Positions 27,079 to 33,411 of a DNA stretch of 33,822 nucleotides are shown in pieces (the first letter of the stretch is position 1; every line of letters begins with the position of its first letter). Under the pieces are notes generated by a model. It worked only from the letters and a program-made list of their open reading frames with translations. It was not told where the DNA came from and did not search any database. The DNA is from Clostridia bacterium. GTDB taxonomy: Bacteria; Bacillota; Clostridia; UMGS1883. A program made the position numbers and the translations under genes. The DNA is taken from NCBI GenBank assembly GCA_017451505.1, contig JAFTOF010000021.1, positions 1-33,822 on the forward strand. The letters are read 5' to 3'.

Positions 27079-28374
27079 TTAAATATCATTTTTTACAAGG
27101 TCGGCATAGGTTTCCCTCTTAACACCGATACGGCTCTTTCTGTCCTTTAAAATAACAATGGGGGGACGGGGGATTCTGTTGTAATTTGATGCCATGGAGT
27201 AATTATATGCTCCCGTTGTCAATACAGCTATATAATCGCCTTTTTCGCAATGGGGCAGATTAATATGCTCTGCAATAACGTCTCCGCTTTCACAGCACTT
27301 TCCTACCACGTCACACTTAAAGTCTGCTTTTTCGTTTGCCTTATTTGCCACAAGCACACTGTAAAGACTTCCATAAAGGGCAAATCTGGGGTTATCCGAC
27401 ATACCGCCGTCTACGGCAACATAGCTTTTATAGCCTTTAATTGTCCTCACGTTTCCTACGCTGTAAAGAGTAATTCCTGCGTCGGCAACGATGCTTCTGC
27501 CAGGCTCCATCATAATGCGGGGCATATCGATTTTTGCTTTGGCACATTTATTTTTAATATGCTCGCTTACTTCCTTTATGCTTTCCTCTATGTCTAAAAC
27601 AGGGTCTTCCTCAACATAGCGTACACCGTAACCGCCGCCTAAATTCAGAACCTTTGCCTCGTAACCGAGCTTTTCCTTTACAAGCACAATGAAATCTATC
27701 ATAATATCGGCACTGTCACAGAAAGACTGACCGTCAAACACCTGACTTCCTACGTGGCAATGGAATCCCATAAGCTCAATATTAGGAAGCGAAAGAGCAT
27801 ATTCCACCAATTCAATCGCCTGTCCCGTTTCAATGGGAACGCCGAATTTAGAGTCCACCTGACCGGTTCTCACCGCCTCATAGGTATGAGTATCTATTCC
27901 GGGGGTAAGACGCATAATAATTTTCTGAGTAATTCCTTTTTCCCCCGCAATACGGCTTATTGCCTGAAGCTCCTCACGGCAGTCCGACATGAAACAACCC
28001 AGACCACAGTCCATTGCAAAAGCAATTTCCTCGTCAGTTTTATTATTTCCGTGGAAGTATACCTTTTCCATGGGGAATCCTGCTTCCTTTGCGGTATAAA
28101 TCTCTCCGCCGGAAACCGCGTCAACACTCATTCCCTCATCTTTCATGATTTTGTACATTTCCTTGAAGCTGAGTGCCTTGCTTGCATAGAGAGGAATACT
28201 TTCCTCGCCGAAATATTTTTTCATCGCGTCAATATATATTCTGCACTTTTCCCGAACACGCTGCTCGTCAAGCACATACAGAGGGGTTTTATATTCCTTT
28301 GCAAGCTCTACTGTATCCACCCCTGCAAAGGTAAGATGCCCCTTTTCGTTAATATCTAAATTTGTGTGTAACAT
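27079..28374 (-). CDS. lysA: Diaminopimelate decarboxylase
   Basis: PLP-dependent fold-type III decarboxylase that makes lysine from meso-DAP. At 431 aa it has the PLP lysine K66 (YASKALS), HCHVGSQ, the LNLGGGYG phosphate-binding glycine loop, EPGRSIV and CCESGD with the active-site Cys from the other subunit. The ATG at 28374 follows AAGGA. It is the first gene of the operon with HPr-kinase-like, Cys-rich, luxS, mtnN and nucleotidyltransferase genes, transcribed from a promoter at 28450-28422. No lysine riboswitch is visible in the short leader. Confidence 0.96.
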   Translation of the reverse strand: MLHTNLDINEKGHLTFAGVDTVELAKEYKTPLYVLDEQRVREKCRIYIDAMKKYFGEESIPLYASKALSFKEMYKIMKDEGMSVDAVSGGEIYTAKEAGFPMEKVYFHGNNKTDEEIAFAMDCGLGCFMSDCREELQAISRIAGEKGITQKIIMRLTPGIDTHTYEAVRTGQVDSKFGVPIETGQAIELVEYALSLPNIELMGFHCHVGSQVFDGQSFCDSADIMIDFIVLVKEKLGYEAKVLNLGGGYGVRYVEEDPVLDIEESIKEVSEHIKNKCAKAKIDMPRIMMEPGRSIVADAGITLYSVGNVRTIKGYKSYVAVDGGMSDNPRFALYGSLYSVLVANKANEKADFKCDVVGKCCESGDVIAEHINLPHCEKGDYIAVLTTGAYNYSMASNYNRIPRPPIVILKDRKSRIGVKRETYADLVKNDI

Positions 28375-28500: not shown

Positions 28501-28531
28501 TTGACATACCCCTACCTGTAGGTAGTATAAT
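28501..28531 (+). promoter_or_regulatory. Strong promoter with 19-bp dyad spacer (MerR-like layout)
   Basis: Perfect -35 TTGACA (28501-28506) and perfect -10 TATAAT (28526-28531), separated by 19 bp instead of 17. The spacer carries CTACC-TGTA-GGTAG (28512-28525). Overlong spacers with a central dyad are the classical layout for MerR-family activation, or the site could be a repressor operator. It drives the structured RNA and possibly the pot operon. Confidence 0.75.
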
Positions 28532-28537
28532 GAAAAA

Positions 28538-28800
28538 AGCAGTAAGACGATGGGAAAATTCATAGAATTTCAATCGGAGTCTTCAAAGCAAATATTTTAG
28601 GACCACTTCAAAATGAAGTCAAGGCCATACGGACAGCCGGGTCCACTGCCGATTGGCGGATTTCCGCCATTATTGATTGAGTTAAAAGCTCAGTTTTATA
28701 AGTTATAACCGAAGCGTATTACGCAAACTTGTGAAATGGTCAATAAGAGTAGTAAAAGTATTATTGCTATATAGACTCTGTATGCCCGACGTCCCGATTT
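28538..28800 (+). ncRNA. Structured non-coding RNA / potA leader (raiA-like?)
   Basis: No coding frame is supported here. CGGAGTCT (28575-28582) pairs with AGACTCTG (28773-28780, one wobble), closing a ~206-nt domain. Inside are GGACC (28610-28614) with GGTCC (28640-28644), an ACTTCA/TGAAGT hairpin, GGCGGA/TCCGCC (28655-28668), a GAG/CTC hairpin near 28680, GCGT/ACGC (28714-28724) flanked by AAGTT/AACTT, and CAATAA/TTATTG (28741-28766). It has a strong promoter and is followed by a terminator at 28843. Size and layout recall the raiA class of structured RNAs of Clostridia; that name is a recollection, not a search result. It is not a recognised riboswitch fold to me. Confidence 0.65.
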
Positions 28801-28842
28801 TCCGTTTTTTTAAGGCGGAGTGTCGCATTTTCAGGATATTTG

Positions 28843-28880
28843 ACGCAAGCTGTGTAATGCAGCTTGCGTTTTGTTTTTTT
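28843..28880 (+). terminator. Intrinsic terminator just upstream of potA
   Basis: A perfect 10-bp stem ACGCAAGCTG (28843-28852) with CAGCTTGCGT (28860-28869), then TTTGTTTTTTT. Only 20 nt separate it from the potA start, and the ribosome-binding site lies between. It therefore either ends the upstream RNA or acts as an attenuator for pot. Confidence 0.92.
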
Positions 28881-28900
28881 CAGATAAAGAGGTGTTACAA

Positions 28901-30388
28901 ATGGAAAAGAACGTAATTATTGAACTTAAAAACGTATCAAAGCATTTTGGGCAGACCTATGCCGTGGAGGATTTTAATCTCTATGTGAAAAAGGGCGAAT
29001 TTATTACCTTTTTAGGACCCAGCGGCTGTGGAAAAACTACCACGCTCAGAATGATTGCAGGCTTCGAGCTTCCTACAGGGGGAGAAATCCTTTTAAACGG
29101 CAAGGATATTACGGATTTACCTCCGTATAAACGCCCTGTAAATACAGTGTTCCAGAAGTATGCACTTTTTCCTCATATGGACGTATACGAAAATGTGGCT
29201 TTCGGACTTAAACTGAAAAAGGTTTCTGACGGAGCTAAAATGCGTAAGCTTACGAATGCGGAAATAGATAAAAAGGTAAAAAACGCTCTTAAAATTGTTG
29301 ATCTGGAGGAATATGAAAACCGTGATATTTCCACCCTTTCGGGCGGTCAGCAGCAGAGAATTGCCATAGCCAGAGCTATTGTAAACGAGCCTGAAATTCT
29401 TCTCCTTGACGAACCGCTCGGTGCTCTTGACCTTAAGATGCGTAAGGATATGCAGCTTGAGCTTAAAGAAATGCACAAGAAGCTTGGCATCACCTTTATC
29501 TACGTAACCCACGATCAGGAGGAGGCACTTACTCTCTCCGATACAGTGGTTGTAATGAAAGACGGTATGATTCAGCAGATTGGCACTCCCGAGGATATTT
29601 ATAATGAGCCTAACAATGCCTTTGTTGCAAACTTTATCGGTGAAAGCAATATTTACAGTGCCACCATGACAGGCGAGAAAAAGGTAAGGTTTATAAACCA
29701 TGTCTTTGACTGCGTGGATGAATTTCCGAAGAATGAAAAGGTTGACGTGGTAATCCGCCCCGAAGACGTTCATATTACAGGGGAAGACCAAGGAATGGCA
29801 AAGGGAAAAATCGTCAGCAAGATTTTTAAAGGAATCCACTATGAATATATTATGATGGTCGGCAGAAACGAGCTTGTAATTGTGGATACCCGTAACCTTG
29901 AAATTGACAAAACCTACGGCTTTGACATCGAGCCTGACGGAATACATATCATGAAAAAAGAGCTTACGGCAAACATCTATGATGATGCTTATATTGATAA
30001 GAATAACCGTGTGGTTATTTCCGAAAGTGCCTTTGAATGTGACATAACCTCTCTTGTTCCCGGCTCTACCGTGGACGAGGAGGGCTATGTGGTAGGTCCC
30101 GACGGAGTACGCTACGATTTCACCGATGCAGATGTAAAGGCGGAAATCGGGCTTAAGGATATTGATATCTTAGACGATGAGCAGAGCGGAACCGTTAGTG
30201 GCGAAATCGTGTCCATCATATATAAGGGCGACCACTATCAGCTCACAATCCGTACACCGCAGGATGAGGATTTTGTCCTTGATACGGAATACACCTACGA
30301 CGAAAACGACCTTGTAGGTCTTAGCGTAAAGAGTGAGAAAATAAAGCTTAAGCTTAAAGGGGAGGCAAAGAAATATGCGAAAAAATAA
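28901..30388 (+). CDS. potA: Spermidine/putrescine ABC transporter ATPase with extended C-terminus
   Basis: ATP-binding subunit of the polyamine importer. Walker [10 protein letters not shown] (39-47), Q-loop [12 protein letters not shown], signature [14 protein letters not shown] and Walker [13 protein letters not shown] are intact. It is 495 aa against about 350-380 usual: after the first TOBE domain (about 299-355) comes a second TOBE-like module (about 429-490) with repeated IVSxIxKGxHY. I chose ATG 28901 after AGAGGTG; an upstream in-frame ATG (28871) lies in the terminator T tract. It overlaps potB by 14 nt. The extra domain may be regulatory; no ligand can be inferred. Confidence 0.95.
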
Positions 30389-31175
30389 AAGTATTTTTTC
30401 CAGAAAATTTCTTGCCGTTCCCTACGCTGTGTTTATGATTCTGTTTGTAGTTATTCCCCTGATGCTGATTATTGCATATGCCTTTACCGATGAGAGCGGA
30501 AGAATAACACTTGACAACTTCCGTGCATTCTTTTCGGGCGGACATAACATAAATACGCTTATGTTCAGCATATTTATCGGGTTTTTAAACACGGCAATAT
30601 GCCTTGTGCTGGGTTATCCTGCGGCATTTATTCTGGCAAAAAAGGAATTTGGCTTTGGCACTGCAACGGTACTTCTTTTCGTGATGCCCATGTGGATTAA
30701 TTTTGTTTTAAGAACTGCGGCAACGAGAGATTTGCTGTTCGCCATAGGTATATCGGGCGGCGAATACCCCTACCTTGCCACTATGATAGGTATGGTGTAT
30801 AACTATCTGCCGTTTGTTATTCTGCCCCTTTATACCACTATGACAAAGATGGATAAAAGCCTTATTGAAGCGTCCTATGACCTAGGTGCAAATAAGGTGC
30901 AGACCTTCTTTAAAACTATTCTTCCCATGACTATGCCCGGCGTTATATCTGCGGCGACAATGGTATTTATGCCTACTATGAGCAGTTATGTAATAAGCGA
31001 CGTTATGGGAGAGAGAAAAATCTCCCTTATAGGGAACAGTATTCAGCTATATTTTGACCAGGGCCTCTGGCATATAGGAAGCCTTGTGGCACTTATTATG
31101 CTGGCTATTATTGCAATAGGCTCTTTTTGTGCCGATTCTGAACCTCAGGAAAACGCGAGAGGGGGATTGTGGTAA
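30375..31175 (+). CDS. potB: Spermidine/putrescine ABC transporter permease 1
   Basis: 266-aa inner-membrane permease with about six hydrophobic helices (for example 14-34, 62-85, 96-113). The EAA loop that contacts the ATPase is [28 protein letters not shown], split here across residues about 160-188. GGGGAGG at 30358-30364 lies inside the potA 3' end. Its stop codon overlaps the potC start (TAATG). The C-terminal tail ends with a short polar GGLW-type sequence as in relatives. Confidence 0.95.
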
Positions 31176-31975
31176 TGAGCAAGAAGAAATTTTCTCTTAC
31201 GGCATTTTTGTGTCGGTTTTACGTGTACATACTTCTTCTGATAATGTACGCCCCTATTATCCTCCTTATAGTTTACAGCTTCACCGATACCAAGATTATC
31301 GGCAATTGGAACGGTTTCACTTTTCGTCTGTATGAATCGCTTTTTCACGACAGTGAAATAATGCAGGCATTTAAAAACACCTTTGCGGTTGCAATTTCTT
31401 CTGCAATAGTTTCTACTTTGCTTGGAACATTGGGTGCAATAGGTATTTTCTACAGTAAACGCAAAGCAAAAGCAGTCATGGAGGGCATCAGCAATATTCC
31501 CGTTATGAACGCGGAAATTGTAACGGCACTTTCGCTTACAATTCTCTTTGTATCAATCGGTGCGGCGTTTAATTTTACCACTCTTCTTATAGGTCATGTG
31601 GTGCTGACGATTCCGTTTGTAGTGCTGTCTGTAAGACCAAAGCTTATGCAGATGGACCCCAATATATACGAAGCGGCACTGGATCTGGGGGCAACGCCCA
31701 AAAAGGCACTGTGGTCAGTTATTGTGCCTGAAATTTTACCGGGAGTATTTTCAGGATTTATACTTTCAATAACCCTTAGCCTTGACGACTATATTATAAC
31801 GGCATTTACACGAAATACAGCCTATCAGACACTCAGCACTTATGTTTACGGCGTGACCAGTAAAAGGGGAACGCTTCCGCCGTCCCTGCGTGCACTTACA
31901 ACCGTGATAACGCTGATTGCCTTGGCTATACTCATTATTGTTAATATTAAATCCGGGGAGAAGGAAAACAAATGA
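31175..31975 (+). CDS. potC: Spermidine/putrescine ABC transporter permease 2
   Basis: 266-aa permease with about six transmembrane helices. The EAA loop is IYEAALDLGATPKKALW followed by SVIVPEILPG, and LSLDDYIITAFT is typical of PotC. I chose ATG 31175, which overlaps the potB stop as TAATG and lies 9 nt after AGGGGG; the longer GTG start at 31169 is less likely. It overlaps potD by 4 nt (ATGA). Confidence 0.95.
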   Translation: MSKKKFSLTAFLCRFYVYILLLIMYAPIILLIVYSFTDTKIIGNWNGFTFRLYESLFHDSEIMQAFKNTFAVAISSAIVSTLLGTLGAIGIFYSKRKAKAVMEGISNIPVMNAEIVTALSLTILFVSIGAAFNFTTLLIGHVVLTIPFVVLSVRPKLMQMDPNIYEAALDLGATPKKALWSVIVPEILPGVFSGFILSITLSLDDYIITAFTRNTAYQTLSTYVYGVTSKRGTLPPSLRALTTVITLIALAILIIVNIKSGEKENK

Positions 31976-33411
31976 AAAAAATAAGTGCATTAATATTGTG
32001 TTTGCTTCTGTGCTTCGGATACCTTCCCTCAGCGTATGCAAAGACTGAGATTTTGCGTGTTTACAACTGGCAGGACTATATCAACGAAGGAAAAGACGAC
32101 GACGGCACGAAAATCAGCGATTCGGTAATTGAACTGTGGGAAAAGGATTACCAAAAACGTACAGGCAAAAAAGTAAAGGTGCAGTATGACACCTTTGAAA
32201 CAAATGAAACAATGCTCAACACCCTGCGTACGGGAAAAACGGCTTACGATTTGGTATGCCCGTCGGATTATGTTATTCAGAAAATGATTGCCGCTTCAAA
32301 AAACGATGGCGAAGAAAATATTTCTGTGGAAAAGTTCGACGTTTCAAAAATGAAGAACTACAGGGAAAATGTTTCCCCCTATATACGGGAATTGTTTGAG
32401 AAAAACGGCTGGACAGATTATGCTGTGGGCTATATGTGGGGAACGGTAGGCTTTTTATACAACCCTGAAAATATCCCTCTTGAGGATGTTTCCACATGGG
32501 ACTTTTTCTGGGACACGAGATATAAAAACCGTATGACCTGCAAGGACGTTTCCCGTGACGCATATGTGGTAGGCTCGCTCTATGTGCATAAAGAGGAGCT
32601 AAGTAAGTGTGTGGAGCAGTATAAAAACGGCGAAATTTCCGCCGAAGAGCTGAGAAAAACCGTTCACGCAGCGGCAAATGATGTTGCCGATGAAAATATT
32701 GAAAAAGTCGGCACGGCTCTTTCGCAGATGAAAGAAAACATTTACGGCTTCGAGGTGGATTCGGGAAAAACCGATATTGTATCGGGAAAAATAGATGCAA
32801 ATCTTGCCTGGAGCGGTGATGCAGTATATGCAATGGACTTAGCCGAGGAAGAAGATAACAAGGAGCTTGCGTTTGTAATTCCCAAAGAGGGAAGCACAAT
32901 ATGGTTTGACGGCTGGGTAATGCCCAAGGGTGCAAATGTGGAGTTGGCACAGGATTTTGTAGACTTTTTGTGTAGACCTGAAATTGCCGTGATGAATATG
33001 GACTATATTGGCTATACAAGTGCTATTGCAGGTGATGAGGTTTTCGAGCTTGTCCGTGAAAACTACGAGGACGAGAACGGAAAGTACGAATATGACCTTA
33101 GTTATTTCTTCGAGGGTACACTTTCCGAGGATAAGTATTCAAAGGACGGCAAGGCAGTTATCCGTACAAATACTATCGGAAGACAGCTTACTACCCAGTA
33201 TCCATCCATGGACGAAGTTGCACGATGCGGAATCATGGAGGATTTCGGGGACAAAAATCAGGCAGTGCTTGAGATGTGGTCACAGGTAAAAAGCAATAAC
33301 ATCACCGTATTTTCCTATGTTATGATGGCGGTGCTGTTTGTACTGCTTGTGCTGATGGTAACAAGAAGCATAAAACGAAGAATTAAGAAGAGAAAAAGAA
33401 TGAGAAGATAA
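31972..33411 (+). CDS. potD: Spermidine/putrescine-binding protein with C-terminal membrane anchor
   Basis: 479-aa extracellular polyamine-binding protein (E. coli PotD is 348 aa). A signal peptide of about 23 residues ends AYA without a lipobox. Then YNWQDY (W33, Y36), CPSDY, DVSRDAY, LAWSGDA and IWFDGW match the polyamine-contact segments of E. coli PotD. The tail has a hydrophobic helix (about 447-464) and a strongly basic end (KRRIKKRKRMRR), so it is probably anchored by its C-terminus, in contrast to a lipoprotein. It is last in the potABCD operon, with ATGA overlap to potC. Putrescine versus spermidine preference is not resolved. Confidence 0.94.
   Translation: MKKISALILCLLLCFGYLPSAYAKTEILRVYNWQDYINEGKDDDGTKISDSVIELWEKDYQKRTGKKVKVQYDTFETNETMLNTLRTGKTAYDLVCPSDYVIQKMIAASKNDGEENISVEKFDVSKMKNYRENVSPYIRELFEKNGWTDYAVGYMWGTVGFLYNPENIPLEDVSTWDFFWDTRYKNRMTCKDVSRDAYVVGSLYVHKEELSKCVEQYKNGEISAEELRKTVHAAANDVADENIEKVGTALSQMKENIYGFEVDSGKTDIVSGKIDANLAWSGDAVYAMDLAEEEDNKELAFVIPKEGSTIWFDGWVMPKGANVELAQDFVDFLCRPEIAVMNMDYIGYTSAIAGDEVFELVRENYEDENGKYEYDLSYFFEGTLSEDKYSKDGKAVIRTNTIGRQLTTQYPSMDEVARCGIMEDFGDKNQAVLEMWSQVKSNNITVFSYVMMAVLFVLLVLMVTRSIKRRIKKRKRMRR

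Follow-up and report, generated by a model that had tools for sequence, protein, structure and literature searches.

The 526-bp gap between lysA and potABCD in the window (the whole 33,822-nucleotide stretch of Clostridia DNA analysed here) contains a structured RNA, and we are nearly certain that this RNA is a conserved cis-acting leader of polyamine genes. It probably works as a polyamine-sensing transcription attenuator, with spermidine the best candidate for the ligand; we infer the ligand's identity, its direct binding and the direction of the switch. A preliminary description had offered two readings of the gap, a raiA-like RNA or a polyamine-operon leader, and the second now has strong support from gene context, covariation and a coupled terminator.

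Extent and fold of the leader RNA

The flanking genes are divergent, with lysA at 28374–27079 on the minus strand and potABCD at 28901–33411 on the plus strand, and their starts (28374 and 28901) agree with the gap of 526 bp given earlier. The first gene of the controlled operon, potA (28901–30388, +), encodes a polyamine ABC transporter ATPase that scores above the TIGR01187 cut-off, and its ATG at 28901 follows a ribosome-binding site, GAGGUG, recognized by sequence at 28889–28894 (+). The permease genes potB (30375–31175, +) and potC (31169–31975, +) fall below the NCBIfam equivalog cut-offs, and the potD-like solute-binding protein gene (31972–33411, +) is assigned by PF13416 and its position in the operon. 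A promoter is predicted by consensus match at 28501–28531 (+), comprising TTGACA (28501–28506) and TATAAT (28526–28531). The preliminary description called this promoter perfect; the hexamers are indeed exact, but they are separated by a 19-nt spacer, and an alternative reading takes TAGTAT as the −10 element with a spacer of 16 nt. From its sequence, the leader transcript is expected to start near 28538. A perfect palindrome, CTACCTGTAGGTAG (28512–28525), lies between the −35 and −10 elements and is a possible repressor site; it is absent from the related loci L010 and L194.

Folding z-scores of −4.5 (28534–28830) and −4.9 (28538–28885), with no shuffled sequence folding equally well, the conserved domain and the covariation described below all bear out the proposal of a large structured RNA. 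A covariance model built here (R1, 198 positions) matches the window at a single place, 28599–28780 (+), with 176.5 bits and an E-value of 1.2e-48. This conserved domain is the candidate aptamer. The RNA is thus real, but the boundaries first proposed for it, 28538–28800, shift: the conserved domain occupies 28599–28780, and the leader with its terminator spans about 28538–28880. The sole Rfam match above cut-off in the gap, from the scan that had been recommended, is the RF02440 (SpF59_sRNA, ldcC RNA) core at 28600–28652 (+), which covers model positions 1–54 completely at 71.6 bits (cut-off 37.2). Conservation extends over about 180 nt, roughly four times the size of the RF02440 model.

The 5′ part of the leader (28538–28598, +) contains CGGAGUCU (28575–28582), which pairs with AGACUCUG (28773–28780) to form the 8-bp closing stem P1. 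This stem, noted in the preliminary description, is conserved beyond chance: 61 of 112 homologs carry 7 bp or more of complementarity in their 5′ flank, against 12 expected. A longer flank-to-flank duplex was only weakly above permuted pairs (mean −25.2 versus −22.3) and was dropped, leaving the short P1 alone. The conserved domain begins with a three-way junction (28600–28644, +) made of P2 (28600–28604/28640–28644), P2a (28605–28609/28615–28619) and P2b (28623–28625/28636–28638); the P2b loop, CAUACGGACA, is near-invariant, and a G-C pair of P2b is swapped to C-G in L020 and L023. There follow the P3 hairpin (28655–28668, +), in which all six model pairs show changes on both sides, and a three-way domain (28671–28745, +) with P4 (28671–28676/28740–28745), P4a (28678–28681/28689–28692), P5 (28698–28704/28726–28732) and P5b (28714–28717/28721–28724). 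The last element (28746–28779, +) consists of P6 (28746–28750/28775–28779) and the inner P6a (28751–28755/28764–28768). The 3′ strand of P6 is also used by P1, so that P1 and P6 compete for it, a second competition in the leader besides that at the terminator.

RNAalifold gave only a weak consensus on the raw MAFFT alignment, and the structure of 55 pairs was therefore drawn by hand on an alignment of 68 diverse members. Because hand drawing favours the structure drawn, slid and shuffled controls were used. In this alignment 91.0% of paired cells can pair, compared with 29–40% when the 3′ partner is slid by one to three columns. Both sides had changed in 30 of the 55 pairs (15.4 in shuffles) and in 243 cells (84.5 in shuffles), and none of 500 shuffles attained any of these values, so the check for conserved sequence and a covarying fold came out in favour of both. 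The top dozen pairs ranked by mutual information are all drawn pairs, a ranking that leans towards the structure since the alignment was fitted to the model. A mutual-information search for pseudoknots yielded no convincing additional helix; an isolated signal, at columns 40–111 of L036, is mostly an invariant C-G. The fold of the domain is supported by covariation.

Distribution, gene context and variants

Homologs occur in Bacilli, Clostridia and Negativicutes, plus one Synergistaceae metagenome-assembled genome (MAG). An exact search of genome contigs for a 23-nt core found at least 117 stretches, and the matches listed include Paenibacillus, Bacillus, Neobacillus, Kurthia, Lachnospiraceae, Oscillospiraceae, Christensenellaceae, Acidaminococcus, Phascolarctobacterium and the Synergistaceae MAG. 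The RF02440 model matches 35 of 291 genomes of the window's class.

Among the core-bearing loci, 127 extend at least 900 nt past the RNA, and every one of them has a polyamine gene as the first to follow on that strand, as judged with gene queries derived from these same loci. First downstream genes are Orn/Lys/Arg decarboxylase (39), SpeD (34), carboxynorspermidine synthase-like (28) and PotA (26), while a polyamine gene lies upstream within 5 kb at only 11 of 126 loci. Since the queries came from the same loci, R1 was also run on whole genomes, with matches in 10 of 60 relatives and in 25 of the 398 genomes searched across the phylum. All 34 loci returned, among them the window itself (L156) and some loci of the first set, lie directly upstream of a same-strand polyamine gene, down to an E-value of 3.5e-6. 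Representative SpeE, SpeD, NspC and agmatinase proteins score above NCBIfam cut-offs and PotA above that of TIGR01187; the dehydrogenase is nearest to carboxynorspermidine synthase, below its cut-off, and the decarboxylase belongs to PF01276. These genes stand for alternative ways of obtaining one product: SpeD/SpeE, carboxynorspermidine synthase-like/NspC, decarboxylase/agmatinase and import by PotABCD.

The leader varies among close relatives. P5a, a hairpin of about 9 nt (GGTTACTTT) kept by nearly all homologs, is missing from the window RNA (site 28704–28711). In genomes G291 and G292, potA is orthologous and has no leader RNA, the promoter standing directly before it; in the former (L188, G291:C3:4400-5700) lysA adjoins potA, as it does in the window, but the two are separated by no more than a short promoter region, and the latter locus is L189 (G292:C31:5900-7300). 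The leader of G294 is broken, having lost its P2/P3 domain (L163 1501–1938, minus strand; G294:C99), and L163 also carries, in the P5b loop, an insert of about 270 nt whose ends are inverted (GAACAGTAATAATCCAA...TTGGATTGTTACTGTTC) and which may be a small mobile element. P3 and P6a are missing from G295 and P6a from G288; in their loci (L010, L194) the deletion of P6a leaves P6 as AGAGTAGTGACTCT, in support of the view that P6 is a hairpin in its own right. Losses within the genus indicate that the leader is a removable module, dispensable in places, and make the genus a poor one for studying it intact. Better intact forms are the Paenibacillus and Bacillus copies (for example, L036 and L046), which score 213–214 bits with R1. 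In a PotA-associated clade (L002, L003, L015, L096 and similar), an additional hairpin, ACCGC...GCGGT, separates UGCCGA from P3; L015 and L096 also belong to another terminator family (AAGTGATATGCC...).

A terminator coupled to the domain

An intrinsic terminator lies at 28842–28880 (+), with a hairpin at 28842–28870 followed by a U-rich tract (z −4.1), and ends 20 nt upstream of the potA start codon. A terminator stands between RNA and gene at 83 of 113 homologous loci, as against 28 of 565 shuffles; at the other 30 no clear one was found. Within the RNA, the strongest pairing partner of the terminator 5′ arms is the 3′ strand of P5b/P5; in the window this is UACGCAAACUUGUG (28720–28733, +), which pairs through 28720–28725/28851–28856 and 28728–28733/28844–28849. 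This antiterminator pairing excludes P5/P5b as well as the terminator. The mean duplex energy of an arm with its own strand is −13.0 kcal/mol, compared with −10.5 (s.d. 0.27) after permutation of arms across loci, −11.0 (s.d. 0.22) after permutation confined to loci of one downstream-gene family and −5.8 with shuffled arms; the observed energy was reached by none of 1,000 permutations under either scheme, although permutation leaves some shared ancestry and part of the excess may be phylogenetic. A nearest-neighbour model puts about 6 kcal/mol between the antiterminator state of the window and its aptamer-plus-terminator state. Base pairing predicts that strands lying far apart will change jointly, and the arm and the P5b/P5 strand do appear to change together by lineage (ACGCA/UGUGU, ACAUC/GAUGU, GCAUA/UAUGC). 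We consider transcription attenuation by a P5-strand antiterminator very likely.

The coupling also bears on whether this is a free-standing, trans-acting sRNA whose transcript merely ends at the terminator. Such an RNA would fit the Rfam type (Gene; sRNA), the presence of SN20, F59 and srn235 in S. pneumoniae sRNA lists, and a predicted promoter of its own with a strong terminator, but it need not lie invariably on the same strand directly upstream of polyamine genes, nor would it need a terminator 5′ arm that co-varies with the domain; we regard it as very improbable.

A riboswitch is expected to have a structured domain that is conserved among the 5′ leaders of functionally related genes, which was found here, and an expression platform mutually exclusive with that domain, which sequence and modelled energies indicate. 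In the mechanism that we propose, the leader would be transcribed from a promoter of its own. At low polyamine levels, 28720–28733, the 3′ side of P5/P5b, would pair with the 5′ arm of the terminator, no terminator would form and potABCD would be transcribed. When polyamine is plentiful, the ligand would bind the 182-nt domain and hold P4, P5 and P5b together, so that the terminator would form and transcription would stop before potA, giving feedback repression. The simplest interpretation is that spermidine represses these genes by feedback, because the regulated gene sets have no single intermediate in common and all raise spermidine, and because a stabilized P5/P5b frees the terminator. RNA binds polyamines loosely in general, and polyamine gene context is therefore not proof of a specific pocket. 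We nevertheless think it likely that the domain binds a polyamine directly, and we lean, if slightly, towards spermidine as the ligand.

The identity of the first genes, which places regulated steps both early and late (decarboxylase, SpeD, carboxynorspermidine synthase-like and PotA), would also suit a riboswitch for a related compound, such as agmatine, putrescine, cadaverine, decarboxylated SAM or carboxynorspermidine, or an ON switch. Spermidine, however, is common to the SpeD/SpeE, carboxynorspermidine synthase/NspC and PotABCD operons and no single intermediate is, and a P5-strand antiterminator implies that a stabilized domain leads to termination; we hold this alternative to be unlikely. 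Less probable still is an attenuator in which a conserved, polyamine-responsive RNA-binding protein stabilizes the 182-nt domain or the antiterminator. Identical context, fold and terminator would be expected of it, and the near-invariant P2b loop together with the joining segments could form a protein site. Against it, about 100 positions across the 182 nt are invariant or near-invariant, more than protein-bound leaders usually require, and clusters of neighbouring genes hold no recurrent RNA-binding protein gene, although one could be encoded elsewhere. A conserved leader peptide was also sought, and an upstream ORF was rejected as a common feature, since only 26 of 138 leaders carry an ORF of at least 10 amino acids with a Shine–Dalgarno sequence and start codon.

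Relation to known RNAs and significance

The suggestion that the RNA was undescribed holds in part: its 54-nt core is already RF02440, and no open paper on the full RNA was found. RF02440 is a pneumococcal sRNA family with no function attached; it covers about a quarter of the window RNA and takes in neither the remaining fold nor the link to the terminator nor the polyamine regulon. In pneumococcus, F59, an 82-nt RNA that judging by the names is presumably the source of SpF59, sits between SP0915 and SP0916 (PMC3395615), and the same place is recorded as SN20 (318 nt; PMC2887815), once guessed to be FMN-switch-like (PMC2887815), and as srn235 (327 nt, in 385 genomes; PMC12323649). The SN20 and srn235 records document a discrete transcript of 318–327 nt at the corresponding place, upstream of the arginine decarboxylase gene SP_0916 (PMC7531197). 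The Rfam alias 'ldcC RNA' suggests that a link to a lysine-decarboxylase gene had been noticed; its origin was not found in the open literature. None of the openly available papers searched describes the full RNA, the polyamine link or the switch.

RNA elements likewise lie beside polyamine genes in the potE, odc1 and speF motifs, the last of these from alphaproteobacteria. The potE motif occurs only in Veillonella and covaries poorly, and the odc1 motif, also alphaproteobacterial, is a hairpin plus pseudoknot that its authors classed with upstream ORFs (PMC8632094). The raiA (ModT) RNAs resemble the window RNA in being complex, about 200 nt long and from Bacillota, and in one genome (L013, G072) a raiA RNA (973–1172, −) and a polyamine leader (1500–1683, +) lie divergent and about 330 bp apart. 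Membership in that family has next to no likelihood and was rejected, as the models match neither way: RF03072, which detects raiA in 56 of the 291 genomes searched from the window's class, has no match in the window or its genome, and R1 finds nothing in six raiA loci. The raiA-like reading of the preliminary description thus fails; ModT, moreover, acts in trans and has variable neighbours (PMC11706538).

The only accepted polyamine riboswitch class that we found in the open literature is a rare SAM-I variant for spermidine with 13 representatives (PMC10853860). It too lies upstream of polyamine genes, including ldcC, speE and speB, and is a terminating OFF switch, but it has the SAM-I fold, whereas the window RNA has a different and larger architecture and well over 100 loci. 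SAM-I (RF00162) has no match in the gap at the gathering cut-off or at E-values up to 10, and known riboswitch classes, SAM-I included, were rejected for want of any Rfam match even at that level. We moderately favour the view that this RNA is a second natural polyamine riboswitch class, with no relation to SAM-I and a far wider distribution. Its aptamer of about 180–200 nt would govern both the synthesis and the uptake of polyamines in Bacilli, Clostridia, Negativicutes and some bacteria outside these classes. If so, all that had been known of the class until now is a fragment filed under sRNA.

Of the small molecules that bind RNA, polyamines rank with the most abundant, and riboswitches for them have long been sought. 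The RNA described here has the gene context, the covariation and the integral terminator switch expected of a widespread class of polyamine sensors, and it occurs in several classes of Firmicutes, pneumococcus included. Our results suggest that RF02440 should grow from 54 to about 200 nt and move from sRNA to cis-regulatory. If the ligand is spermidine, the size and near-invariant core of the domain would show how an RNA can achieve selective recognition of a flexible, purely cationic molecule.
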